Virus record (IMG/VR): IMGVR_UViG_3300025168_000601
Span: 1-25,441 of that record
DNA: 25,441 bases
From: a virus
Direction: 5' to 3' (one strand)
Under the pieces are notes generated by a model, which had not been told where the DNA came from, did not search any database, and saw only the letters and a list, made by a program, of their open reading frames with translations. Positions within the stretch are counted from its first letter, which is position 1, and every line of letters begins with the position of its first letter. Both the position numbers and the translations under genes were made by a program. Shown here piece after piece: positions 4,769-19,516 of this stretch.

Positions 4769-6250
4769 ATGGCAATTTCAAACCCTGGTGGTTTATTAAA
4801 TAGTGTACCTGCTTCACAGAAGGTTGCATTATCAACAAACTACCTAGACCTTTCTTCTGGCACAAACGCTGGATGGGGGCAACAATATGTACCAGATCTT
4901 ATGGAAAAAGAAGCTGAAGTTTTCGGACCGAGAACTATTTCAGGTTTTCTTGCACAAGTAGGAGCTGAAGAGGCTATGACAGCTGACCAAGTAGTTTGGT
5001 CTGAGCAGTCAAGACTACATTTATCTTACAAAGGTAATATGTCAGCTGACCACGTGTTCACTGTTACTTCTGATATAGATGGTAACAACGACGCGGGATC
5101 AACTTTCGTATCTGCTAACCACGGTGTTAGAGTTAATGATACTGTTCTTATTGCAAATGTAAACGGTGTTTTTAAAGGTATTGTTACTACAATTACAGGA
5201 GCTGCTATTACAGTTAAAGCTTACAATGCTGTAACAATAGCTCAGTTAACAACTGCTGGAGCAACAACTTTATTAGTTTATGGTTCTGAATATGGAAAAG
5301 GAACTGCTTATTCTAATAACACTGCTGCTGATAGAAATGTTAACTCTCACTCTGCTAACGAGCCTGACTTTAAAACTTTTACTAACAAGCCTATTATTAT
5401 GAAGGATTACTATGAGATCTCAGGATCTGATGCTTCAAAAATTGGTTGGGTAGAAATTTCAACTGAAGGTGGTCAAGGTGGTTACTTATGGTACTTAAAA
5501 GCTGAGTCTGATACTAGAGCTCGTTTTAATGACTATATTGAAATGTCTATGCTAGAGTCTGTTAAAGGTGATGCTGCAGGTAGCAACGTAGTTGACACAC
5601 ACTTAGGGCATGCAGGTACAGAAGTTGGTACTGAAGGTTTATTCGCTGCTATTGAGTCAAGAGGTAATGTTACTACTGGTGTTACTGGTGTTAACGCTGC
5701 AACTGATTTAGCTGAATTCGACGCTATCTTAGCAGAATTTGACAAGCAAGGTGCTATTGAAGAGTATATGATGTTTGTTGACAGAGCTACGTCTCTTGCA
5801 ATGGATGATATGTTAGCTTCAATGAATTCTTACGGTGCTGGTGGTACTTCTTACGGAGTATTTAACAACGACGAAAGTATGGCATTAAATTTAGGTTTTG
5901 CTGGTTTCAGACGTGGATCTTACGATTTCTACAAGTCTGACATGAGATACTTAAATGACAAAGCTACAAGAGGTGGTATTAACGCTGCTAACGCTGCAAA
6001 TGCTATTAGAGGGGTTATGATTCCTGCTGGTACTTCTTCAGTTTACGATCAAACTGTTGGAGCTAGTATGAAAAAACCTTTCCTACATGTAAGGTACAGA
6101 GCTTCTCAAACTGATGATAGAAGAATGAAAACTTGGACTACTGGTTCAGTTGGAGCTGCTACATCTGCTTTAGATGCAATGCAATTACACATGTTAACTG
6201 AAAGATGTTTAATTACTCAAGGTGCTAACAATTTCATGTTAATGAAATAA
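4769..6250 (+). CDS. Major capsid protein (HK97-fold type)
   Basis: This is probably the main shell protein. Evidence is its position after the scaffold-like gene, the length of 493 residues, a very regular high-expression look with few charged stretches, and its own strong terminator directly downstream. The N-terminal arm (1-90) includes PDLMEKEAEVFGPRTISGFL. Residues about 205-265 (KPIIMKDYYEISGSDASKIG, then YLWYLKAESDTRARFNDYIE) look like an E-loop leading into the long P-domain helix of HK97-fold capsids, in the style of crAss-like major capsid proteins. Residues about 96-172 form a separate beta-rich, Thr/Val/Ala-rich segment resembling the cassette seen in tail proteins (feature 5054-5284). 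The C-terminal part contains an FDKQGAIEEYMMFVDRATS helix-strand unit. There is no Shine-Dalgarno site; the 25-nt leader is A/T only. Confidence 0.83.
   Translation: MAISNPGGLLNSVPASQKVALSTNYLDLSSGTNAGWGQQYVPDLMEKEAEVFGPRTISGFLAQVGAEEAMTADQVVWSEQSRLHLSYKGNMSADHVFTVTSDIDGNNDAGSTFVSANHGVRVNDTVLIANVNGVFKGIVTTITGAAITVKAYNAVTIAQLTTAGATTLLVYGSEYGKGTAYSNNTAADRNVNSHSANEPDFKTFTNKPIIMKDYYEISGSDASKIGWVEISTEGGQGGYLWYLKAESDTRARFNDYIEMSMLESVKGDAAGSNVVDTHLGHAGTEVGTEGLFAAIESRGNVTTGVTGVNAATDLAEFDAILAEFDKQGAIEEYMMFVDRATSLAMDDMLASMNSYGAGGTSYGVFNNDESMALNLGFAGFRRGSYDFYKSDMRYLNDKATRGGINAANAANAIRGVMIPAGTSSVYDQTVGASMKKPFLHVRYRASQTDDRRMKTWTTGSVGAATSALDAMQLHMLTERCLITQGANNFMLMK
5054..5284 (+). repeat. Divergent beta cassette inside the capsid protein
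   Basis: Residues about 96-172 of the major capsid protein read as alternating beta strands: a Val-Asn-Asp-Thr-Val stretch, then KGIVTTITGAAITVKAY, then TTLLVYG. Their order (GD/ND-T-V, I-T-x-I-x-G-x-x-I-T-V, final L-x-V/F) matches the cassette in the ring-like, muzzle-like and adhesin-like proteins, but identity is low. It falls before the putative E-loop, so it could form an outward-facing insertion or decoration domain on the shell. Relationship to the other copies is inferred. Confidence 0.4.
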
Positions 6251-7228: not shown

Positions 7229-8164
7229 ATGGCGGTAAGTGTAGACACAGTGTATCAAAGAGTATTAGCTATGGCTAATAAAGAACAAAGGGGTTATATA
7301 ACACCTCAGGAGTTTAACTTATTCGCTAATCAAGCGCAGATGGAAATATTTGAACAATATTTTTACGATGCAGGTCAGTTCAGCAGAATGCCTAGAGATG
7401 AAACACCTAGAGCTGATGTTGTTCATTTGTTAGAAGAAAAAATAAGTATATTTAGAAGAAGACATCAACCTGTTGTAATTGGCAATATTTATGGTGACGG
7501 TACACTTCCAACTGATGTTTACAGGTTAGATAATCTTTTATCTTACAACACTACTGACACTACTAGAATAATAGAAGAAATAACAGAAGATGAGTTAGTG
7601 ACTTATGGTCAATCCCCTTTAGCTAAACCAACAACTCAAAGACCTGTTTATTTAAGAGTAAGTGCAACTAAAGTAAAAATATATCCTTATGGTGATGGTA
7701 CTAACGGTGCTGCTGTATTTTTCACATCAACAGGTTCTCTTAGGCACAACAGTAATAACAGATTAATAAATATAACTGGATCAAACTTAACTTCTATAAA
7801 AGTTGGCCAAACTATTACTCAAGGAAGCCTTTTAGCTGATACAAAAATCACTGCAATATCTGGTTCTGTTTTAACTATTGATAAAGACGCGCAAACTGGA
7901 GGGTCGGTAACTATTACGTTTGCATCAGGAGATATTAAGTGCAATTATATTAAAAGACCTGCTAGTGTCAACTGGGGGTATACAGAAATAAATGGGTCAG
8001 CACTATACAACAGTGCATCATCTACTGATTTTGAGTTACACGCTTCAGAAGAAATATCTTTAGTGTACAAAATATTAGCATTAAGCGGTATATCTTTAGG
8101 CGGTGAACTTTACAGTATAGGTAGCCAAGAAGATGCAAGGCAACAACAACAAGAAAAACAATAA
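7229..8164 (+). CDS. Connector/ring-like protein (neck), with inserted beta cassette
   Basis: This is probably one of the ring or adaptor proteins that join the portal to the short tail. The N-terminal region (1-60) has VYQRVLAMANKEQRGYITPQ and ANQAQMEIFEQYFYDAGQ, a signature I recall from structural genes of marine podoviruses just upstream of the giant muzzle-like gene. Residues 85-150 form a beta-rich core (LPTDVYRLDN, YLRVSATKVKIYPYG). The core seems to resume at 234-250 (DIKCNYIKRPASVNWGY), and residues about 165-233 between them match the recurrent cassette. The C-terminus (266-311) is helical and ends in a Gln-rich tail. The stop is followed after 3 nt by the next gene, so the two are translationally close. 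A T7 gp11-like adaptor is the nearest functional analogue, by position. Confidence 0.65.
   Translation: MAVSVDTVYQRVLAMANKEQRGYITPQEFNLFANQAQMEIFEQYFYDAGQFSRMPRDETPRADVVHLLEEKISIFRRRHQPVVIGNIYGDGTLPTDVYRLDNLLSYNTTDTTRIIEEITEDELVTYGQSPLAKPTTQRPVYLRVSATKVKIYPYGDGTNGAAVFFTSTGSLRHNSNNRLINITGSNLTSIKVGQTITQGSLLADTKITAISGSVLTIDKDAQTGGSVTITFASGDIKCNYIKRPASVNWGYTEINGSALYNSASSTDFELHASEEISLVYKILALSGISLGGELYSIGSQEDARQQQQEKQ
7721..7927 (+). repeat. Beta cassette in the ring-like protein
   Basis: Residues about 165-233 contain IKVGQTITQGS, TKITAISGSVLTIDKD and VTITFAS, following the same strand order as the copies in the tail proteins. The flanks (VKIYPYG before, IKCNYIKRPASVNWG after) read as two halves of one beta hairpin, so the cassette appears to be inserted in its loop. 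The boundaries are approximate. Confidence 0.6.
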
Positions 8165-8167
8165 TAA

Positions 8168-9046
8168 ATGGGATTACTAGACAATCAAACACAAGCAGAC
8201 TATCAAGGTGGTACTTTAGGAAATTATCAGTTTACTTCTCTTGATAACATTATAGATCAATTTATGGTTGCTTACGTAGGGGAAGATAAATTAATACAAA
8301 AAATTAAAAGAACTGATGTTGCTTTTCATGCTCAAAGAACTTTACAAGAGCTTTCTTTTGATACGTTAAAATCAACTAAGGCACAAGAAATAATAGTACC
8401 TGCTAGTTTAAAAATGATTTTACCACAAGACTATGTTAATTATGTAAAGATTACTTGGCATGACACGGCTGGTGTAGAGCGTGTTTTGTATCCTGCTATA
8501 AAAACTTCTAATCCAAAATCAATAATTCAAGGAACTGATGGGTCTTATACTTTAAGTGGTAATGAGTTACAGTATAATGCTGACTCTAAAACTTGGGAAG
8601 CCTACAAATCTGGTTCTGGGCAAAACAGTAATGATGATTACAACTACAACCACAATACAGACAATTATGATTTAAATAGAGGAGAAAGATATGGTTTAGA
8701 CCCTGCACACGCTCAAACTAATGGGTCGTTTTATATTGATGAGTTGTCAGGAAATATACATTTTAGTTCTAATATTTCAGAAAAAACTGTAACCTTAAAG
8801 TATATAAGCGATAGCTTAGGCACTGATGCTGAAATGCAAGTTCACAAATTTGCAGAAGAAGCTATGTATAAGTGTATAGCATACGCTATTCTATGTACAA
8901 GATCTAACATACAAGAGTATATAGTTAGAAGATTCCAAAAACAAAAATTCGCAGCCGTAAGAACAGCTAAACTAAGATTATCAAATCTAAAAATAGAAGA
9001 ATTAACTCAAATACTTAGAGGGAAGTCTAAGCAAATAAAACACTAG
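8168..9046 (+). CDS. Second connector/ring-like protein (adaptor)
   Basis: This is probably another neck ring or tail adaptor component. The N-terminal half has a helix-strand pattern: TSLDNIIDQFMVAYVGEDK, KRTDVAFHAQRTLQELSFD, then a beta region IIVPASLKMILPQDYVNYVK. The combination of a helical bundle and a beta barrel is reminiscent of gp11/gp4-like adaptors and crAss ring proteins. Residues about 150-180 are a low-complexity Asn/Asp/Tyr-rich linker (NDDYNYNHNTDNYDLNRG). The C-terminal 70 residues are helical and basic (KFAEEAMYKCIAYAILCTRS; RRFQKQKFAAVRTAKLRLSN). The gene ends in TAG, the only non-TAA stop in the window, and is followed after 3 nt by the giant tail gene. Assignment is by order and pattern, not by a search. 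Confidence 0.63.
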   Translation: MGLLDNQTQADYQGGTLGNYQFTSLDNIIDQFMVAYVGEDKLIQKIKRTDVAFHAQRTLQELSFDTLKSTKAQEIIVPASLKMILPQDYVNYVKITWHDTAGVERVLYPAIKTSNPKSIIQGTDGSYTLSGNELQYNADSKTWEAYKSGSGQNSNDDYNYNHNTDNYDLNRGERYGLDPAHAQTNGSFYIDELSGNIHFSSNISEKTVTLKYISDSLGTDAEMQVHKFAEEAMYKCIAYAILCTRSNIQEYIVRRFQKQKFAAVRTAKLRLSNLKIEELTQILRGKSKQIKH

Positions 9047-9049
9047 TAT

Positions 9050-12000
9050 ATGCCTGAGATTAAAAATACTTTCACGTCGGGGAAGATGAATAAAGATCTC
9101 GACGAGAGATTAGTACCCAAGAATGAATACAGAGATGCGTTGAACATTGACATTGCTAACTCAGAAGCTAGTGATGTTGGGTCAGCGCAAAATTCTTATG
9201 GTAACCTAGTTAAATCTAACACCGGTATACTAGGCGCTAAATGTGTTGGTACTGTTTTATACCCAAACAATTCTATTGGCTCTACAAGTGTTATTTGGTT
9301 TATAGCAGGCACGGATGTAAATGCTATTGTAGAATATTTCCCAGATCAGCAAACTGCAGTTCCAATTCTTATAGATGTTAAAAGCGTTGCAACAAATGTT
9401 AATGGTGTTATGGGTAGTGACGATGATACTTTTTTTATAGACAGTCCAAACGGTTTATTTAACAACGTAAGAATAGGTATGGATGCCGTTACTAGTGATG
9501 ATGCTCCTGGTTTCTACCCTAAAGTTAAACAAAAAAACATAAGTACAACTCAAGCAAACGGATCTTCTACATCGAACTCTACAACTGTAAATCTTTCTAG
9601 CGCTAACCACAATATAAGAGCTGGCCAAACCGTTACAAGTACAAACATTTCAAACAATGTTACAGTATCAACTATAGCTGGTACCACTTTAACACTAAGT
9701 GGAGCTCCAGGTGGTACAATAGCGGCAGCTGAAGAGCTAACTTTCACATCAACAAACTCAATTACTATTGATGACTATAGAGGTTTTGTAGATGGTTTTG
9801 ATGTTACATTTAAAGACGATGGGTTTTTAAAGTTTGACGTTAATACAAAAATTACGGCTATAAACGTATTAGATGGCTTGTTGTTTTGGACGGATGGTGT
9901 TAACGAACCTAAAAAAATAAATATAGAATCAATGAAATCTGGTTGTAATACCGATCAAGCCAGGTTTTTTGATAGAACAACAGTTTTAAAAATTAATGGA
10001 TTTAGAAAAGCTGATACTGTTACAGAAAAAGACATAACTGTTATAAAAAAATACCCTTTAAACTCTCCTAATTTAGAAATGGCAGAGTCTATTAGAACAG
10101 GTAAAATAACAGCATCTCTTACAACTCCAGTTAATACTTCTTACGGTTCGTGGGGTGGTATTCACGCTAGAGGTTCTGGAAACAAAGTTATACATAACAA
10201 AATTTTTCAAAGACCTTCTTCTGAGCAGGCTGAAATTGGACAGCGAATAATAAGGTTTTCACCAGTAGTTACCCCTACAGTCAACATAATGCAAGATGGT
10301 ATTCACTACAAAGACTGGAGATCTGTTTCTAGTGGTATGACAGTTTTAGTTGATGGTGTTCAAATAGTGCACTCTACTCTTGGAGGAAATCCTATAAGAT
10401 GGGTTGATTATGAAAACCATTGTATTCACCTGCCTTATGACTTAGAGTCTGTTATACCTAGCGGTTCTGTTATTGAGATGAGGTATTGGTTAAACGCTTT
10501 TAAAAATGAATCTTTTTGGTGTTATAGAACTTTAGGAGATAAAATTTTACCAAAAAAAGTAGGTACTAACTGTGAAGCTCAAACAGGTTTAATAGACGGA
10601 CAAACAAATTCAAGTGGTTTACTTGGTAGACCTATGAGAATACAAGAGTTGCAGTTTGATGGTCAACCAAACTTTTTAACTGGTGACATTATAAAACTAG
10701 TAGCTCCAAACCCATTAGCTGCCGGTAACGAAGACCCAGAGGTAGAAGTTAAAGTTAAACTTTTAGACGAGGTAATAAGTACTACCAGTTTAATGGAGCC
10801 AGCAACACATGCTAATGCTATTGCAAACGTTGGAAGTGAAAAAATTGGTAGCTCTGACAATAAAACTTTTGCAGGTTCAAATGACTGGGAACTTTTCACT
10901 ATGAAAATAACACCTTTTGGTGATGTTGGTGATCTTGTAACCAGTGTAGTAACTAACACAACGGGTAGTGGTGGTTACCTTGAATTTGCCAGCACTGACT
11001 TAAGTGCTAGAAAATTATTTGCAATACTACCAAAAAACAAAATATCACCAAACGCGGATTTCTTTCAAACAAATAAAACCTACCAAATAGAAGTTCAATT
11101 TGACATGGCTAGCTATGTTGAAGGTTCTATAAGGGGTGAAATTACGGTTGGAGGCGCAAGTGGAGCTGCTGGTGTAAACCATTTTGGTTATGATATTAAC
11201 TTAGAAACATCAGCTATAGTTAGTGGTAACCCTGGGGTTAATGCAACAAGCATTACTCTTACTAGGGAAAACGCAGGTATAGAAGTTGGTATGCAGGTTA
11301 GACATGAGGATACTGATGTTGGTAAGGTTTCTGCAATATCTGGTGGAGCCTTAACGTTAAGTAACGTTCCTGGTGGTACGGATCTTGACGCTAATGATGT
11401 TTTAACATTTCATACTTTAAACACTAGCACAAGTGGAATAAAAACTTGCACCTTTTACATTCACACTAAAGACACAAAAACTGAAAACGGTATTGTTATA
11501 AATCCTTACGGGTTTAAAGGTAATGTTAGTTCAGGAAGTAGAAGATACCCAACACCGTTTAGTGGTGTTGATGCTAAGGTTTTGCAAATGGAACCAGCTA
11601 CTGGAGTAGCCGGTGCACCACAAACGCTTGGTACTCTACGTCAAATGATAACGCCTGGAATGAGAGTAACAGGTACAAACGTGCCAGCCGATACATTTGT
11701 AATACATAGAATAAGTAATAAAATAAAAACAAACAATGATGTTAGTGGTGTTGGAACTGGTGATGAGTTAACTTTTTCTGCGTCTTTCCAGCTAAAAGCA
11801 ATGCCTGGTTTCACTAATGACAATGATATAAACTTAAGAGTTAATAACTTTAGTTTTAAAGAATGTGACCCTACTATTGGCAATGGGTTTGGTTTTAAAG
11901 GCACAAACACTTTTGGTGGGTTTTCAAGAAAAGTATTTAATGCCGAAATAACAACAATAGCCGACAAAATAGTTCAACTACCACAAGACGAGGCTATAAC

Positions 12001-15000
12001 TTGGTCGTGTGAAATTGTTAAAGGAGAAACTTTATTTGAAGATAAGTTTCCTAGGTTTGCTTATAGGTGGATGTATTCTGATGGTGAATATTCAGCTATA
12101 TCACCTTTTTCTAAAGTAGCATTTCTACCAAACTCAACTACTGGTTATGAGTATGATGGTCAAGGAGGTTTCAACGTGTCTATGCAAAATAATCTTAGGT
12201 CTTTAAAGCTTGTTAACTTTGATAAAATGCCTTTAGATGTTACTGAGTTTCAATTACTTTACAAAGAATCTGATAGTACAAATATATACCACTACTTATC
12301 TAAAAGAGGTGGTGAGTTAGAGTTTTCAGATATAGATATAACTTCTGAAACTGTTAACGCTGTTTTACCTTCAAATCAACTTCTAAGACCTTATGATAAC
12401 GTTCCTAAATCTGCAAAAGCGCAAGAAATAAGTGCTAATAGATTAATCTATGCTAACTACAAGCAGCAGTATGATATGGTTGGTTATAATAATGACAACG
12501 CAAAGTTTGACTATATATTTAAAAACGTTGCTAACAATATAGTAGATAACAAACCTAAAGAATCAATGAAAGCTTTTAGAAGCTATGATTTAGGAGTTTC
12601 TTTACTAGATAAATATGGTAGACAAACACCTGTTTTTTCTAATGACAACAGGCAAATAAAATTAAAAAATAGAGACGCTAAACAAGGTAACTTTTTTGAA
12701 GCTTTAGTTTCTTCGCGACCAGAAGAGTGGGCTACTCACTACAAGTATTACGTACACGACAAACACAACGATCACTATAACATGGCTTTAGACAGGTTTT
12801 ATCCTGCAGAAACTAGAGAGCATGTTTGGTTATCTTTTGTTTCTAGTGATGCTAATAAAGTTCAGGAAGATGATTTTATAATTCTAAAAAAAGTACACGA
12901 CTCTAACGATTCAGTCCCTGAAGACTTAACAGTTAAATATAAAGTTCTAGAAAAATCTAGCAATGCGCCAGAATCTATAACTGGTATAAAACGTCTTTTT
13001 GGTAGAATAGCAGATGTTGATTTTGGAACAGCTACCACACCCGCAACCAACTTTCCATTATTAGGCACAAGTATAATTAGATTAAGAGGTAGTAGTGTTG
13101 TAGGTAGCGAACTAGAAGACATATACTCTCTACCTCAAGGTAATAAATATATAAGAATAGGTAATAGCGATCAAGTTGTTATATCTAACTATTACAAAGT
13201 AAGTTCTATAGAAAGAGTTGATTCAAACACAAATAGTTTTTTTGGTGATGGTGATGATTACTACGATATAACTTTAGAAACAACTATAGGTGGTGACACT
13301 GGTTTTGTTGGCACATCTTCTGCTCAGACTAACAATTGTTTTATAGAATACTATGAAAAAGTAACTGACGAATACGCTGATGAGTTTGAAGGCAAGTTTT
13401 TTGTTAAAATATTAAAAGACGATAACTTAACAAAATACATATTAAATTCTTCAGCACCAAAAGACGAAATTTACTACACTTTAAAATATACTAAACAAAT
13501 ACGTTGGGCTCACGTTTTTAATACTGGTACTGATAATGTTGGTGACTACCATTCCACGGGAAACTCATCAATAACCGATGTTATGAGCGATGGAAATACT
13601 TGGATGTTGGATACGTACAGTTGGTCGCAAATTTATACTGGTGGTTCTTCTTCTGTTGAAAATCAAACAACAAACACTCCGCCATTCACTGCGCAATGGG
13701 CTTTTTCTAATGAATTATACCCTATATACCACACTTTAGAAGACTCTGATTTAGATGGAACTGTTGGTGGTGGTGACTATACTGATGATCAGTACATGTG
13801 TATTGACAGCGCTTGGAGTTATGGCGATTCTGGTGTTTTAAACCACGGTGAAGATTATGGTGTTGGTGACAGAGCTAAGGCTGGTTATGGTTTTAGAATT
13901 GGTGAAAGCAAGTGTCAGTTTAGATTAGCTAACGTAGGTGATCAACCAACAGGTGTTGATGATATTGTAACAACAACCCCTGTTAGCAGTTATATATCTT
14001 CAGAGTTAAACGGATTATATCAAGACCTAGGAACAATAGGAACCTCTTTTAGATGGTCTGACGATCCAGATGGTACAATATACACTATAAACAACGTTAG
14101 CACTCACGGTGTTAATCAATATAGACATTCTTTAAAAGTAAACAGAGCTTTTACAGATTCAATTTTAGCACAGCCATTCACATCCACCGCTGCATATGCT
14201 GGTAGTTATAACTCAAGCTATAGTACATCTCACAACACTAGGTTAGCTCTAGCTCACGGATCACAAAACTACCCAGACGATCCGACAAGCCCATTGCACG
14301 ATATAACAGTTGGTGATTTAGTTTACAATGTTAGTACCGGTGCTTATATTGTAGATAGTGCTGGTAATAATCTTAAAGTTGCCCATTTTGGATACTACAA
14401 CAATCCTATCGGCTCTCCTTTAAGAATATCGACGTATACTGTTGAGATGAGTTTTGATGGAGTTGCTTCTACGCAAATAACGCAGGGTCAAACTCTTAAG
14501 TTTTACAGAACAGCAACGCACGCGGGTAGTAATGGTAATATAGTGTCAAATGATTTCTTTGAAACAAACGTTGATGCTAGTGATTTTAACAATAAAAACA
14601 ATCAAGGCTGGAGATATGATATAGACTTAAACAAGCTTATAACTTGGTCGCCTACATCTGCAACAAATCAAGACGGTAGTTCTAATACTGGAAGAATGTA
14701 CGCTATGGGAACAAACCCAGGTTTGAACAAAACCTCTACGCTTGAAATACTAAAAATAGATACTGATCCTGTTGGAGAAACTTTCTTTAGTGAAAACCCA
14801 GCCGTGTTTGAAGTAGAACCTCAAAAAGCTATAGATACAAATCTTTATTACGAAACCTCAAACTCTGACGTAATTATAAAGCCAAATATGTTTGTTTCAT
14901 GTGGAGATGTTGTTGGTTTAGGACCAACGTACTCTCCTTTAGCTGGTGACGCTATTATAACTTCAGTAAACTACGAGTCATCTGTTATGACTAACAACCC

Positions 15001-17308
15001 TGGTAACGCTGGTTCCTCTGCTTTAAATGTGAAAATAGACGGTATAGGCGATGGAATACCAGCTGGGCATAAAATAACTATATTTACTAAAGATGAAAAT
15101 GGTGATGTAGACTTATCTCAAGAGTTTACTGTCTTAGTTGGCAACAGTGTGTCGCAAACAGACGGTGGGAGTAACATGAGACAGCTTGATTATACGCCTA
15201 GAGCAAGTGATTCTGCTTTTTTTAATGGTATAAAAATAAGACCAACAAAGTTAGAGTATTTTAATTGTTATTCTTTTGGAAATGGTGTAGAAACTAATAG
15301 ACTTAGAGATGATTTCAATGCTATCACTATAGACAAGGGGCCTAGAGTTTCTACTACTATGCTAGATAAGTATATGGAAGAGAATAAAAAACACAGTTTT
15401 ATATACTCTGGAATATACAACAACATAAGTACACAAAACAATTTAAATCAATTTATACAAGCAGAAAAAATAACAAAAGATTTAAACCCTGTTTACGGTT
15501 CAATTCAAAAATTATTTAGTAGAAACACAAATTTATTAGCTTTTTGTGAAAATAAAGTTTTAAAAGTTTTATCTAATAAAGATGCTTTGTTCAACGCTGA
15601 TGGAAATGTAAATATAACCTCAACAAACAACGTGTTAGGGCAAGCGGTTCCTTTTGCTGGTGATTATGGTATATCAACAAACCCAGAGTCTTTTGCTAGC
15701 TATGGTTATAGAGTTTATTTTTCAGATAAAGATAGAAACTCAGTTTTAAGACTTTCTGGTGATGGTATAACTGACATATCTGAAAAAGGTATGAAAGACT
15801 TTTTTAAAGACAATCTTAACGAAGCCTCTACAATAGTTGGTAGTTACGATATTAATAAAGACTTATACAACTTAACTTTAAACAATAAAACAGTTAGTTT
15901 TAGTGAAAACGTTGGGGGTTGGACAAGTTTAAAATCTTTTATACCTGAAAACGGAATATCAATATCTGGAGACTACTATACTTTTTATAACGGTGAAGTT
16001 TGGAAGCATACGGTCAACACGTTGAGAGGTAATTACTATGGTGTTCAGTATGACTCAAGTATTAAGTTTATTTTTAACGACCAACCTTCTATTGTTAAAA
16101 GCTTTAAAACATTAAACTATGAAGGAACTGAATCTAGAAAATACAACAATGATGGTGAATTAAGTCTTTCAGGTTGGTACGCTAGATCTATAGAAACAGA
16201 CATGCAGTCTGCGGAGGTTAAGCAGTTTTTAGATAAAGAAAATAAATGGTTTAATTATATTAAAGGAACCAGTCTAACTACAGCAAACCTAGACTCTAAA
16301 GAGTTTAACGTGCAAGGTTTAGGTGTTTGCTCTGGTGTTTCAGTTACTTCTGGCTCTCACGTAACAAACTATGTTCACACTACAAGGCTAATACCTTCCA
16401 GCGAAGCTATATCAGTAGTTATGGTTGGCGCTAACTACGGCTTCATTAATACCATTGGTAACCCTGATGACTTTGCTGCAAGTGGAACTGCTGGGTCTAT
16501 ACAACCAGCAACAATAGGAGGCACTAACAACGCAGCGGGTTTTACAGTGAATTCTACAACTCAAATAACAGGTACAATAATAGCAAATAATGTTGCAACT
16601 TTGTCAAGTCTTGGGGTATCAAGCACTACACCTAGTGGCGTTAGATTTTTAAGAGGTGTTGTTACAGATCTAGTTCCTGGACAAACTTACACAGTTTCAG
16701 CTACAATATCAGGTTATACAAAAGGAAGTGGTGGTATAGCCACAGACACTCATGAAGTTGGTTTTGTAGATATTAGCGGTGTTGGAACTACAGCTAGAAG
16801 AAATGCTAACGGTCAAATATCAACAACGTTTACCGCTATAGGTAAAAGACTAGATATATTTAAAGGCGCTTATGTTGCTGCTGTCATGTCAAACATATCT
16901 ATAGTTAAAGAAAACACAAACTTATATCCTAGGTTTATAATAAACAAATCTTTAACAGATTTAACAACAGCTGATACATCTATAACAGTAAACAGAGTGG
17001 CTGGTAGTATATCAAGCCATGACCAAGTGTTTTATATACACGGTCAATCAGTTAGTGGTCAAAGATGGAATCAAATTGCTAGTGGTGTTACTATAACTGA
17101 GGTTTCTGACCCAGGCACTAATATTGGTACAGTTGTAAAAGAAGATGGTTATATAAAAAGCGATGGAACCTTTGATGATGTAGATACGTATCAAAACACC
17201 GCTACAAATGTAATTAGGTTAACAGTTCCTGTTTCAGGTACAATGCCTGCTAATGATTTAACATCTATACTCTCAGCAGCTGTAACATCAAATCTTGTTC
17301 AATCATAA
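9050..17308 (+). CDS. Giant muzzle/nozzle-like tail protein, multidomain
   Basis: This is probably the distal tail (nozzle or muzzle) protein that closes the DNA channel and contacts the cell. The N-terminus (FTSGKMNKDLDERLVPKNEY, then RDALNIDIANSEASDVGSAQ) is a signature I recall from crAss-like 'stabilization'/muzzle proteins and marine podovirus homologues. A second conserved core lies around residues 2155-2260 (LLAFCENKVLKVLSNKDALF; YGISTNPESFASYGYRVYFS; SVLRLSGDGITDISEKGMKD), resembling blades of the beta-propeller-like part of T7 gp12-type nozzles. Between and after these are accessory pieces: cassettes at about 172-233, 724-788 and 844-911, and two jelly-roll-like carbohydrate-binding candidates (about 606-940 and 2473-2622). 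There is no membrane segment or signal peptide. At 2752 residues it is well beyond the roughly 1400 I recall for crAss001 muzzle. The frame is uninterrupted over 8.2 kb. Confidence 0.72.
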   Translation: MPEIKNTFTSGKMNKDLDERLVPKNEYRDALNIDIANSEASDVGSAQNSYGNLVKSNTGILGAKCVGTVLYPNNSIGSTSVIWFIAGTDVNAIVEYFPDQQTAVPILIDVKSVATNVNGVMGSDDDTFFIDSPNGLFNNVRIGMDAVTSDDAPGFYPKVKQKNISTTQANGSSTSNSTTVNLSSANHNIRAGQTVTSTNISNNVTVSTIAGTTLTLSGAPGGTIAAAEELTFTSTNSITIDDYRGFVDGFDVTFKDDGFLKFDVNTKITAINVLDGLLFWTDGVNEPKKINIESMKSGCNTDQARFFDRTTVLKINGFRKADTVTEKDITVIKKYPLNSPNLEMAESIRTGKITASLTTPVNTSYGSWGGIHARGSGNKVIHNKIFQRPSSEQAEIGQRIIRFSPVVTPTVNIMQDGIHYKDWRSVSSGMTVLVDGVQIVHSTLGGNPIRWVDYENHCIHLPYDLESVIPSGSVIEMRYWLNAFKNESFWCYRTLGDKILPKKVGTNCEAQTGLIDGQTNSSGLLGRPMRIQELQFDGQPNFLTGDIIKLVAPNPLAAGNEDPEVEVKVKLLDEVISTTSLMEPATHANAIANVGSEKIGSSDNKTFAGSNDWELFTMKITPFGDVGDLVTSVVTNTTGSGGYLEFASTDLSARKLFAILPKNKISPNADFFQTNKTYQIEVQFDMASYVEGSIRGEITVGGASGAAGVNHFGYDINLETSAIVSGNPGVNATSITLTRENAGIEVGMQVRHEDTDVGKVSAISGGALTLSNVPGGTDLDANDVLTFHTLNTSTSGIKTCTFYIHTKDTKTENGIVINPYGFKGNVSSGSRRYPTPFSGVDAKVLQMEPATGVAGAPQTLGTLRQMITPGMRVTGTNVPADTFVIHRISNKIKTNNDVSGVGTGDELTFSASFQLKAMPGFTNDNDINLRVNNFSFKECDPTIGNGFGFKGTNTFGGFSRKVFNAEITTIADKIVQLPQDEAITWSCEIVKGETLFEDKFPRFAYRWMYSDGEYSAISPFSKVAFLPNSTTGYEYDGQGGFNVSMQNNLRSLKLVNFDKMPLDVTEFQLLYKESDSTNIYHYLSKRGGELEFSDIDITSETVNAVLPSNQLLRPYDNVPKSAKAQEISANRLIYANYKQQYDMVGYNNDNAKFDYIFKNVANNIVDNKPKESMKAFRSYDLGVSLLDKYGRQTPVFSNDNRQIKLKNRDAKQGNFFEALVSSRPEEWATHYKYYVHDKHNDHYNMALDRFYPAETREHVWLSFVSSDANKVQEDDFIILKKVHDSNDSVPEDLTVKYKVLEKSSNAPESITGIKRLFGRIADVDFGTATTPATNFPLLGTSIIRLRGSSVVGSELEDIYSLPQGNKYIRIGNSDQVVISNYYKVSSIERVDSNTNSFFGDGDDYYDITLETTIGGDTGFVGTSSAQTNNCFIEYYEKVTDEYADEFEGKFFVKILKDDNLTKYILNSSAPKDEIYYTLKYTKQIRWAHVFNTGTDNVGDYHSTGNSSITDVMSDGNTWMLDTYSWSQIYTGGSSSVENQTTNTPPFTAQWAFSNELYPIYHTLEDSDLDGTVGGGDYTDDQYMCIDSAWSYGDSGVLNHGEDYGVGDRAKAGYGFRIGESKCQFRLANVGDQPTGVDDIVTTTPVSSYISSELNGLYQDLGTIGTSFRWSDDPDGTIYTINNVSTHGVNQYRHSLKVNRAFTDSILAQPFTSTAAYAGSYNSSYSTSHNTRLALAHGSQNYPDDPTSPLHDITVGDLVYNVSTGAYIVDSAGNNLKVAHFGYYNNPIGSPLRISTYTVEMSFDGVASTQITQGQTLKFYRTATHAGSNGNIVSNDFFETNVDASDFNNKNNQGWRYDIDLNKLITWSPTSATNQDGSSNTGRMYAMGTNPGLNKTSTLEILKIDTDPVGETFFSENPAVFEVEPQKAIDTNLYYETSNSDVIIKPNMFVSCGDVVGLGPTYSPLAGDAIITSVNYESSVMTNNPGNAGSSALNVKIDGIGDGIPAGHKITIFTKDENGDVDLSQEFTVLVGNSVSQTDGGSNMRQLDYTPRASDSAFFNGIKIRPTKLEYFNCYSFGNGVETNRLRDDFNAITIDKGPRVSTTMLDKYMEENKKHSFIYSGIYNNISTQNNLNQFIQAEKITKDLNPVYGSIQKLFSRNTNLLAFCENKVLKVLSNKDALFNADGNVNITSTNNVLGQAVPFAGDYGISTNPESFASYGYRVYFSDKDRNSVLRLSGDGITDISEKGMKDFFKDNLNEASTIVGSYDINKDLYNLTLNNKTVSFSENVGGWTSLKSFIPENGISISGDYYTFYNGEVWKHTVNTLRGNYYGVQYDSSIKFIFNDQPSIVKSFKTLNYEGTESRKYNNDGELSLSGWYARSIETDMQSAEVKQFLDKENKWFNYIKGTSLTTANLDSKEFNVQGLGVCSGVSVTSGSHVTNYVHTTRLIPSSEAISVVMVGANYGFINTIGNPDDFAASGTAGSIQPATIGGTNNAAGFTVNSTTQITGTIIANNVATLSSLGVSSTTPSGVRFLRGVVTDLVPGQTYTVSATISGYTKGSGGIATDTHEVGFVDISGVGTTARRNANGQISTTFTAIGKRLDIFKGAYVAAVMSNISIVKENTNLYPRFIINKSLTDLTTADTSITVNRVAGSISSHDQVFYIHGQSVSGQRWNQIASGVTITEVSDPGTNIGTVVKEDGYIKSDGTFDDVDTYQNTATNVIRLTVPVSGTMPANDLTSILSAAVTSNLVQS
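9563..9748 (+). repeat. Beta cassette 1 of the giant tail protein
   Basis: Residues about 172-233 (AGQTVTSTNISNNVTVSTIA, then GTTLTLSGAPGG, ending LTFTS). It is the copy closest to the second cassette of the 597-aa protein (18484-18678). Over the 40-residue core starting at QTVT/MKVT, I count about 24 identical positions by eye. Confidence 0.7.
11219..11413 (+). repeat. Beta cassette 2 of the giant tail protein
   Basis: Residues about 724-788: ATSITLTRENAGIEVGMQVR, then VGKVSAISGGALTLSNVPGG, ending VLTFH. It has the same order of landmarks as cassette 1: an IxxGM turn, an 'aISGgaLTLS' strand, a proline-glycine turn and a final LTF. Confidence 0.65.
11579..11782 (+). repeat. Beta cassette 3 of the giant tail protein (partly degenerate)
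   Basis: Residues about 844-911. The first half is clear (LRQMITPGMRVTGTNVPADT) and so is the end (GDELTFSA), but the central 'SIxGTTLTLS' strand is replaced by IHRISNKIKTNND. At DNA level it shares the 14 bases GTAACAGGTACAAA with cassette 2 of the 597-aa gene. Confidence 0.5.
16466..16915 (+). other. Second jelly-roll / carbohydrate-binding-like region near the C-terminus
   Basis: Residues about 2473-2622 have the strand pattern of a CBM4/9-like sandwich: NNAAGFTVNSTTQITGTI, then VTDLVPGQTYTVSATISGYT, and the closing strand VAAVMSNISIVKEN. It lacks an inserted cassette in the long loop, so it serves as an internal comparison for the region at 10865-11869. A host glycan-binding role is inferred only. 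Confidence 0.4.
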
Positions 17309-17319
17309 AAATAAAATAA

Positions 17320-19113
17320 ATGGCAGGTATTATAAGATCAACTTTAAAAAATTGTACAGAAACTTTTGGCGCTAGTTATTCTACCGCTGGAACGCCTTTT
17401 ACAACTGCTAATGTTTTTAGCAAAACAATTACTTCTGAAGCTGGTTTTGTTTTTACAACTCCTCCAACTATAGATTTCTCTGGCACAAGCAGAGGTAGCT
17501 ATAGCTTTACTTTTGTTGACACTCCAAGTAATGGTGTTAAAAACAAAAACTTAACATCTAGAGCGTACACTGTTAACTACACTTACGGTTTAACACAACC
17601 AACGCAAGACGTAGTGAAGTTTTTTGCAACAGCTAAAAGAATCCACTCTGACACTACTACTAATGTTTACGGTTATGACTTAAAAGAAAATTCAATAAAA
17701 CAAGGTGGTGAAAAAAGAAATTTACTTGTATATGGAGATGCAGGTGTTTCTTTTAGTGTTTTAGCTAAGGTAACAGGTGGTAGTAATTTAACATCAACAT
17801 CAGCTAGTGTTAAAACAGCTTCTTCAAGCTCTACTATTGTTATTTTAACAGTTTCAAACCCTAAAATATTTGTAGGTATGAGTGTTACCGGTACTGGTGT
17901 TGGTGCTAGTGTTACTGTTGCCGCTATAAGTGGTACAACGTTAACTCTAAGTGCTGCTAAGTCTTTAGATGCAAACACTGTTTTAACTATAGGTGCCACT
18001 GGTTCTTTTACAGCAACATTAGACGGTAACGGTAAGTTTGTTTTACCAATTACATTTCCTAGGGTTTCCTCTCCAGCAAACTACACTGTTACTCTAACTG
18101 AAATAGCTAGTGAATCTTTTTCTGGAAGCTTAACTTCACCAACAAGTATAATAATATATCAATACATCAACACAGTAACAACACTATCCACAACACAATC
18201 TGGTAGTGATTTTGTAATATCTGGAAACAACATAGTTCATACAATACCTGGCAACACCGTAAGACAAACCTCAGATGATATTCTTTTTTACGTAAGTAGT
18301 AATGCTGCCGCTGGAGTAAACGCTGCTGGAACCGCTACTATACGACCTATAAAAACAATAGGTTCATTCAACACGTCTGATCTTGGTGGAATTGAATCTA
18401 TAAGCGGGCAAGGTGCTATATTAACAAACGGTACAGACATTAAAATAACTGGATTAGAAAGATCGTTAAGTCAAGGAACTACAAGAACAACATCTGGAAA
18501 CAGTAGCACAACGGCAATAACATTGTCTAGCACTAACGCTGCTATAAAACCAGGCATGAAAGTAACAGGTACAAATATTAACAATGTTGTAACTGTTGCT
18601 TCTATAACAGGAACTGCTTTAGTATTAAGCGGGGCTCCTGGCGCTACAGTTGCAAGCGGTACTACTTTAACGTTTGCACCGGTAGCAACTATAATAGGTA
18701 GGTTTGGTATAAACAAGAGTGGATCAGCTAATGATACTGTTAGTATATTGGCAAATAATATAATAGCTTTAAACGAAGCGCCTGTAGCTGTTAGTGTAGC
18801 TGCTCAGTCTATTCCATCAAATGACCCTGTCAATGTAAGTCTTCCTGCTACTGATGCCGAAAGTGATAGTTTGATATACGTTATAACACAACTACCGTTA
18901 ACTGTTTCTGGAGATGCTAGTCATGGAACTTTAAAATACGGAGAAGAAAACACAGCTATCACAAGTGTACCAACGGTATTACCTCCTGGAACTAAAGTTG
19001 TAAAATATCAAAAACCAGCAAACAGCACTACAGCTACTGATTTTAAATTTAAAGTAAATGACGGTTATCAGAATAGTAATGAAGCAACTATAATAATGAA
19101 TCTAACAAACTAA
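17320..19113 (+). CDS. Adhesin-like virion appendage with beta cassettes and a cadherin-like C-terminus
   Basis: This is probably a tail appendage or adhesion protein. The sequence is nearly all beta, rich in Thr, Ser, Val and Ala, with very few aromatic or charged clusters. Residues 85-270 look like Ig-like sandwiches (LVYGDAGVSFSVLAKVTGG and GSFTATLDGNGKFVLPITFP flank the first cassette, 162-227). A second cassette occupies 389-453, between IKITGLERSLSQGT and ATIIGRFGINKSG. The C-terminal domain (486-597: NEAPVAVSV, SLPATDAESDSLIYVITQLP, HGTLKYGE, FKFKVNDGYQNSNEATI) matches the bacterial cadherin-like/Big_9 pattern with its Asp-rich calcium-type turn. The gene follows the giant tail gene by 11 nt and precedes the small 133-aa gene by 1 nt, so it is co-expressed with the tail. 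No enzymatic motif is visible. Confidence 0.65.
   Translation: MAGIIRSTLKNCTETFGASYSTAGTPFTTANVFSKTITSEAGFVFTTPPTIDFSGTSRGSYSFTFVDTPSNGVKNKNLTSRAYTVNYTYGLTQPTQDVVKFFATAKRIHSDTTTNVYGYDLKENSIKQGGEKRNLLVYGDAGVSFSVLAKVTGGSNLTSTSASVKTASSSSTIVILTVSNPKIFVGMSVTGTGVGASVTVAAISGTTLTLSAAKSLDANTVLTIGATGSFTATLDGNGKFVLPITFPRVSSPANYTVTLTEIASESFSGSLTSPTSIIIYQYINTVTTLSTTQSGSDFVISGNNIVHTIPGNTVRQTSDDILFYVSSNAAAGVNAAGTATIRPIKTIGSFNTSDLGGIESISGQGAILTNGTDIKITGLERSLSQGTTRTTSGNSSTTAITLSSTNAAIKPGMKVTGTNINNVVTVASITGTALVLSGAPGATVASGTTLTFAPVATIIGRFGINKSGSANDTVSILANNIIALNEAPVAVSVAAQSIPSNDPVNVSLPATDAESDSLIYVITQLPLTVSGDASHGTLKYGEENTAITSVPTVLPPGTKVVKYQKPANSTTATDFKFKVNDGYQNSNEATIIMNLTN
17803..18000 (+). repeat. Beta cassette 1 of the adhesin-like protein
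   Basis: Residues about 162-227: IFVGMSVTGTGVGASVTVAA, then ISGTTLTLSAAKS, ending VLTIGA. The flanking strands on each side read as one Ig-like domain split by this segment. Confidence 0.68.
18484..18678 (+). repeat. Beta cassette 2 of the adhesin-like protein
   Basis: Residues about 389-453: AIKPGMKVTGTNINNVVTVA, then SITGTALVLSGAPGATVASG, ending TLTF. This is the best-formed copy and the closest relative of cassette 1 in the giant tail protein, which suggests copying between the two neighbouring genes. Confidence 0.72.
18775..19110 (+). other. Cadherin-like (Big_9-type) C-terminal domain
   Basis: The last 112 residues of the 597-aa protein carry the landmarks of bacterial cadherin-like repeats: N-E-A-P-V at the start, P-A-T-D-A-E-S-D-x-L with acidic residues for calcium, H-G-T-L in the middle and F-K-V-N-D-G at the end. 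Such domains are common in adhesins of marine bacteria, and Ig-like relatives are common on phage surfaces. Confidence 0.6.
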
Positions 19114-19114
19114 C

Positions 19115-19516
19115 ATGGCAGTAATACAAATAACATTACCAAACCCAGTAAACGTCTCTCTACAAGCTAAAACAGCTACTGTGGCTAGCTCTAGTAGTTA
19201 TATTACAGATAAAGGTTCTTGGGATTTAGTTTACTTTACTAAAATAGACGTTACAGGTAAACAGGTTGGAGGCGTAGTAAAACTAGGTGAGTGTATAGCA
19301 GTTGTTACAGGAGCCACTACATACACAATAGATGTTCAGACAACTGGAACTGAAATACTACCAGTCTCTGGTGACTACGTATTTTTTGGCAAAAACACAG
19401 AGGTAGAAACGTCTGGTATATCTGGTTACTACTCAGAAATAGAAATGGTTAATGACTCGGCAAAACAATCAGAACTTTTTGCTGTTAGTTCTCAAATCAC
19501 TTTAAGTAGTAAATAA
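19115..19516 (+). CDS. Small conserved virion-associated protein of unknown function
   Basis: The product is a 133-residue beta-rich protein. I recall its C-terminal motif, GYYSEIEMVNDSAKQSELFA followed by VSSQITLSSK, from many marine phage contigs beside giant tail genes. No function is known to me. Residues 55-105 (LGECIAVVTGATTYTIDV; PVSGDYVFFGKN) form a short beta barrel-like pattern loosely similar to the recurrent cassette. The start codon lies 1 nt after the preceding stop, a near-overlap that suggests coupled translation with the adhesin-like protein. A small cement, chaperone or tail-fibre accessory role is possible. The next gene starts after a 40-nt A/T-rich gap with no hairpin. 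Confidence 0.68.
   Translation: MAVIQITLPNPVNVSLQAKTATVASSSSYITDKGSWDLVYFTKIDVTGKQVGGVVKLGECIAVVTGATTYTIDVQTTGTEILPVSGDYVFFGKNTEVETSGISGYYSEIEMVNDSAKQSELFAVSSQITLSSK

Follow-up and report, generated by a model that had tools for sequence, protein, structure and literature searches.

A single cassette of 55-60 residues recurs six times in the structural gene block of a fragment from a marine crass-like phage, once in a crassvirus-type tail-barrel ring protein, three times in a muzzle protein, and twice in an immunoglobulin (Ig)-rich protein. The fragment is the IMG/VR virus record IMGVR_UViG_3300025168_000601, of which the whole 25.4 kb were analyzed and are called the window hereafter; the window features located below lie on its + strand. 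The copies are homologous, the segment is present or absent at fixed sites among orthologs, many unrelated proteins carry it, and its predicted fold is barrel-like. We consider it probable that the cassette is a mini-barrel insert spread by recombination, which would act as a passive decoration or spacer on the exterior of its hosts.

Six copies in three virion proteins

Copy 1 (7754-7924; profile E 1e-15) lies within a β-hairpin of the ring protein (7229-8164). The muzzle protein (2752 amino acids (aa); 9050-17308) carries copy 2 at its N-terminal site (aa 176-233; 9575-9748; E 9e-20), copy 3 (aa 731-788; 11240-11413; E 3e-19), and copy 4, the most divergent (aa 859-909; 11624-11776; E 5e-17). 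Finally, the Ig-rich or adhesin-like protein (597 aa; 17320-19113) contains copy 5, inside an Ig/FnIII-like domain (17827-17991; E 2e-19), and copy 6 (18505-18678; E 3e-18). A six-frame profile search of the window recovered exactly these six cassettes and no seventh. An earlier note on this DNA had listed six such segments in the same three proteins, and all of them reappear in this independent search, in frame.

The relationship among the copies was evaluated by leave-one-out, in which a profile hidden Markov model (HMM) built from five copies was used to seek the sixth, with 1300 shuffles of the 13 window proteins as the control. The scores were 11.8 bits for the ring copy, 40.3, 31.0, and 7.9 bits for the muzzle copies, and 36.5 and 49.7 bits for the copies of the Ig-rich protein, against a best shuffled score of 5.5-8.7 bits, varying by run. 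The profile approach that the earlier note had proposed therefore separates five copies from the shuffles but leaves copy 4 marginal, its 7.9 bits being within the shuffle range and borderline from the window alone. Copy 4 becomes firm, at 57 bits, with a wider profile of 24 related sequences, itself among them. At the DNA level, only the comparison of copies 2 and 6 stands out among the six (67% over 126 nucleotides), and these are also mutual nearest neighbors at the protein level (54% identity); a transfer between them within the genome would be possible.

Regarding the hosts, the ring protein matches phrog_14543 (2e-28), and its AlphaFold2 model (predicted local distance difference test score (pLDDT) of 79) superposes on the phicrAss001 ring protein 7qoj_E with Z 13.6 and 4.2 Å for 201 residues aligned across model residues 3-292, a predicted match to the ring-protein fold of that phage. 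The muzzle protein matches phrog_14478 (3e-113) and the C-terminal domain crAss_MUZ_C of Pfam (2e-11; PF25729, 44 bits versus a cut-off of 27). The model of the Ig-rich protein (pLDDT 81, near 90 at copy 6) is nearly all β, with Ig/FnIII and complement/A2M-type structure matches; a Foldseek search with the whole model gave only generic Ig-chain matches.

Filled and empty sites, and the range of hosts

In an alignment of the ring protein, for which 80 relatives were fetched, the cassette is found in the window and in relatives L001-L019 (divergent in L018), between a strand ending in ..KIYP and another starting with CNYIKKP..W, and in nearly all other relatives this site is a short turn. Mapped on the portal tree, its presence requires 4-5 changes, and grouping all carriers in one clade is rejected (p-AU 2e-42). 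For example, L051, without the cassette, stands beside L004, which has it, and L017 has it amid a cassette-less group. The second ring protein of the window (8168-9046; phrog_13977, 6e-39) has no cassette, its sites being empty, and relatives have one or two: a tandem pair at one site in L031, L032, L034, L052, L054, L055, and L072, and a single one at a different site in L053. Unrelated longer inserts also occupy cassette sites, in the ring protein of L031 (8240-9295) and L049 (7402-8577) and in the second ring protein of L037 (10791-12347), and one of the ring-site inserts looks by eye like a jelly-roll binding domain. The hairpins of ring proteins look like general docking sites for inserts.

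Cassettes occur in 18 (window included) of the 111 muzzle relatives with a length of ≥1200 aa, at positions from ~120 to 2570. At the N-terminal muzzle site, there are either 17-26 residues or insertions of ~55-150 residues, many of which are cassette-like by eye and too diverged for the HMM. Length variation of the muzzle comes from insertions able to affect surface properties (PMC10172136), and the cassette accounts for part of the length variation in crass-like ring and muzzle proteins. By eye, copies 3 and 4 seem to lie inside a jelly-roll-like domain (10850-12050; aa ~600-1000) that would itself be an insert, so that the insertion would be nested; a second jelly-roll-like stretch (GQTYTVSATISGYTKG...; 16640-17080, aa ~2530-2680) is seen near the C-terminus.

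For the Ig-rich protein, a search of IMG/VR by peptide patterns gave no relatives, and those compared came from the ring and muzzle loci. Copy 5 is absent in L207, L215, and L051 and present in L006. Presence and absence at one site among orthologs is thus observed for the ring protein, the second ring protein, the muzzle, copy 5 of the Ig-rich protein, and the bacterial FlgK described below. The comparison of homologs that the earlier note had asked for did not refute it: empty sites exist in ring, muzzle, and Ig-rich homologs, and most ring and muzzle relatives do not have the cassette, in agreement with the mobile module at defined sites proposed in the earlier note. As judged from these alignments, the segment is a removable insert and not an integral part of its hosts.

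The cassette is not restricted to these proteins. A search of IMG/VR with a degenerate DNA pattern for GMxVTGTGIP gave at least 120 loci, the counts being lower bounds that favor that exact motif. In 119 of them, the iterated HMM detects 280 domains in at least 132 carrier proteins of 64-4718 aa, with 1-8 cassettes each, the best reversed-sequence decoy having an E of 0.05. When the cassettes are masked, all carriers fall into at least 67 groups without detectable similarity, a number that links below the BLAST threshold would lower. These hosts include a DUF3383 tail sheath, with the cassette at 164-220 between two aligned stretches, a head closure protein Hc3 with two cassettes, a T7-type nozzle, a tail tube, tail fibers, collar proteins, and internal virion proteins. 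At the sequence level, the same domain is therefore found in unrelated host proteins, and the proposal of one module across several virion proteins extends to many more of them.

Neither Pfam nor NCBIfam holds a family model for the cassette, which makes it a common domain outside these libraries, and the matches in PHROGs are weak and partial and lie in large virion proteins. A tblastn search of annotated phages with the consensus cassette returned no match, which is no evidence of absence because the low-complexity filter likely masks its Thr/Ser-rich sequence. The GMxVTGTGIP motif was not found printed in the literature examined. Domain shuffling in receptor-binding and baseplate proteins of phages is established (PMC10684548), which makes the process one of a known kind. 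As far as the libraries and literature examined show, what is new is the cassette domain itself, together with its spread across proteins of the sheath, head closure, ring, and muzzle and its occurrence in flagella. Moreover, the cassette could serve as a marker to follow the exchange of surface parts among virion proteins at scales below the gene.

Predicted fold and role

In the AlphaFold2 models, copy 1 consists of strands 179-183, 195-197, 205-211, 214-217, and 225-232, and copy 6 of strands 399-402, 414-417, 424-430, 433-436, and 449-452, with the same order and spacing. The folds predicted in the two modeled hosts therefore agree, as expected by the earlier note for copies of one module. 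The ring cassette superposes on residues 5-77 of the decoration protein of Arthrobacter phage Bridgette (PDB 8eci, chain 1) with Z 7.7 and 2.9 Å for 72 aa at 26% identity, and Foldseek gives a probability of 1.00 for the same target at 30% identity. It also matches residues 103-178 of the Mystique tail tube (9n71_A; Z 7.6), and residues 233-309 of the Chi tail tip (8vjh_B) are matched by both copy 6 (Z 8.7, 2.3 Å) and the ring cassette (Z 6.2). Many small barrels of the translation-factor type are also matched by the ring cassette, and among the rows listed by VIA-align, the cassette matches are small β-barrels such as domain 2 of EF-Tu, riboflavin synthase, and UBA1.

From the predicted models, the cassette would belong to the small β-barrel class and not to the Ig sandwich, in a comparison that covers the folds listed. 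None of the six cassette sequences scored above the cut-off against Pfam, Ig families included, and NCBIfam gave no match. Together with the barrel-type matches, this fits the earlier claim of a segment distinct from Ig domains and with its own signature. Within the Ig-rich model, the FnIII/Ig-type match RbmA (Z 9.0) has just 93 aligned residues between positions 115 and 284, which is consistent with copy 5 (~165-226) being inserted within that domain. The nearest solved relative would be the Bridgette cement protein, by model and with a weak sequence link.

The consensus approximates ssttitltsanttgikvGMtVtGtGIpagttVtsitsgttitLSaaatttatnvtlTFt, with five core strands. Compared with the rest of the same proteins, the cassette is poor in Trp/Tyr (1.1% versus 5.4%) and in charged residues (8.5% versus 17.7%) and rich in Ser/Thr (31.5% versus 19.0%), and its conserved positions, Gly and hydrophobic, look structural. 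We propose that the cassette is an independently folding mini β-barrel domain of ~58 residues. Its ends would adjoin, because short turns close the empty sites, and it could then stand in for a β-turn and leave the host fold undisturbed. By recombination it would move between sites and between phages, with repeated gain and loss. An exterior position is suggested by the Bridgette relative, a capsid cement that bridges capsomers (PMC13033339); in such a position, the cassette would form an inert protrusion, rich in Thr/Ser/Gly, on the outside of a tubular or shell-like assembly, altering spacing, stiffness, and exposed surface. Since it is tolerated in ring, muzzle, sheath, cement, and flagellar junction proteins, its job is most likely generic.

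Some observations weigh against this proposal. The ring cassette reaches a pLDDT of only ~66-85 in its model, and the Z values of 6-9 for single cassettes are in the range where a common small β-barrel arrangement suffices. The sequence link to Bridgette, over residues 18-71 of 8eci, is weak (E 0.0064 and 0.0066 with two profiles). Also, in the closest pair examined, L046 versus L057/L060, the flanks diverge too, so that the difference reads, from the aligned sequences, as an allele replacement in a diverged recombination patch and not as a clean insertion; the step creating new sites was therefore not caught.

Other roles can be considered. One is that of a cement or stabilizer, in which the cassette contacts neighboring subunits and reinforces the tail or shell, as might be expected from its only solved sequence relative, weak as the link is, being part of a protein that bridges capsomers (PMC13033339). 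However, close relatives manage without the cassette at the same site, and the hosts are of very different symmetry, so the interfaces would have to re-evolve at each site; we regard a cementing role as unlikely. We are equally doubtful that the cassette is a neutral or near-neutral insert, a well-folding segment of DNA that persists since insertion into an exposed turn costs little. Its patchy presence, the scattered muzzle sites, and the unrelated inserts at the same sites of ring proteins (L031, L049, and L037) agree with this, but copy 6 persists in each of the five aligned close homologs of the Ig-rich protein, the ring cassette is kept through most of one ring clade, and the conservation of the motif over many hosts argues that folding, at least, is maintained.

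Somewhat less probable still is that the cassette binds glycans or mucus specifically and thereby enriches virions at the surfaces of hosts or particles; glycan or mucus binding was an example of function offered in the earlier note. Its occurrence in fibers, collar, Ig-rich proteins, and giant bacterial surface proteins, and a copy number that varies from 1 to 8 per protein, would be compatible with adhesion; nonetheless, adhesion is not usually located in sheath, head-closure, or ring proteins, the consensus has no conserved polar or aromatic patch, and the low Trp/Tyr and charge contents, together with conservation of Gly and hydrophobic positions, give no sign of a conserved binding site. 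Binding is thus not supported by the composition. Lastly, it is very improbable that the segment belongs integrally to every host domain and the likeness arises merely from β-rich Thr/Ser/Gly sequence, for although the composition is of low complexity and the barrel matches are generic (EF-Tu, riboflavin synthase, and UBA1), this is contradicted by the empty sites, by shuffled and reversed controls that score far lower, and by the rarity of the cassette in bacterial genomes. The passive exterior decoration or spacer is accordingly the role that we favor.

Bacterial copies, gene context, and known systems

In 84,980 bacterial and archaeal species genomes, the GMxVTGTGIP DNA pattern occurs at 47 loci, many of them in Verrucomicrobiota and Planctomycetota, and the phage-trained HMM detects cassettes at those loci in 40 proteins, mostly long and of surface type. 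Some are flagellar. A locus of Geobacter sp. OR-1 (L294; 893-4869, - strand) has seven cassettes in an FlgL-type protein (Flagellin_N) and one in FlgK (FlgK_D1, Flg_bbr_C), and every match in this genome at E 1e-4 falls in these two genes. Moreover, there are three cassettes in an FlgE/F/G-type protein (L310:1-1272, -), one in a fragment with Flg_bbr_C (L309:7147-7998, -), and two in an FlgL relative (L336:1051-3165, -). Among the relatives of Geobacter, G007, G010, G011, and G012 carry the FlgK cassette, whereas the FlgK matches of G009, G013, G014, and G015 skip that stretch, and two of the latter, read through (L352 and L353), have no cassette. In these few relatives, the pattern is that of the phage ring, sheath, and muzzle proteins, with presence or absence at a fixed FlgK site and ~2-7 repeats in FlgL. 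Only 2 of 198 genomes of one bacterial phylum match at E 1e-7, which argues that the profile is specific.

The module proposed for virions is therefore found in virions but is wider than that, extending to flagellar hook-junction proteins and giant surface proteins of bacteria. In the literature examined, no study joining the flagellar hook, FlgK, and the phage tail in this sense was found. Whether one transferable mini-barrel outfits the exterior of two self-assembling tubes, phage tails and flagella, is a question on which we see the balance as even; it would suggest exchange between the two or a surface pressure common to both. Should the flagellar copies be truly homologous, the surface evolution of phage tails and of flagella would be linked, and recurrent splicing into unrelated shell and tail proteins would show that phage machines and flagella share a pool of plug-in surface parts.

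Besides the cassette hosts and the second ring protein, the window encodes a terminase, a portal (phrog_6547), a scaffold-like protein, a capsid protein, a conserved protein of unknown role, and further genes. Its annotated relatives, Maribacter phage Panino and the Flavobacterium 'elemo' phages, share <40% identity with it. The Ig-rich protein has its own gene in the window, whereas L209-L211, L046, L057, and L059 encode it as the C-terminal part of the muzzle gene (for example, L209:8001-14693, L046:11637-17786, L057:11178-17504, and L059:9655-15333), which reads as gene fission or fusion of the tail tip. Downstream, a 133-aa protein (19115-19516) matches the C-terminal part of phrog_18548 (positions 172-237), the N-terminal part of which (3-141) matches muzzle aa 2280-2431, a further sign of split and fused muzzle pieces.

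A segment of the capsid protein (5030-5314) had been taken for a weaker version of the cassette. It was rejected as a copy by sequence, with at most 4.9 bits in leave-one-out and an hhalign probability of 15%; the hhalign P value of the cassette profile against this domain is 0.0018, versus 0.27-0.58 for four control families, and a remote relation of fold would be possible. The segment corresponds to the E-loop I-domain, a widespread crassvirus feature according to the phicrAss001 study (PMC10172136), and its conservation in all aligned capsid homologs indicates an integral domain. Like the cassette, the I-domain is a β-barrel within a virion protein, with similar G-x-V ... I-x-V landmarks; unlike it, the I-domain is always present in the aligned homologs, and the profile similarity is not significant.

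The Mystique tail tube and the Chi tail tip resemble the cassette at the fold level, each through a subdomain of its chain; in neither case is there a sequence-profile match, and what is shared may be merely a common fold. In the Bridgette protein, the likeness extends over the whole cassette, at a Z that leaves a common arrangement open, but it concerns part of a free-standing cement protein of 126 residues and not an insert. A parallel is offered by the Ig-like domains, which Fraser and co-workers reportedly described in 2006 as hopping among phage virion proteins. These are also promiscuous small β domains at optional positions of unrelated head and tail proteins, with a function mostly unproven. 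The cassette differs from them in being shorter, in its GMxVTGTGIP signature, and in barrel-like instead of sandwich matches, with no hit to Ig families.

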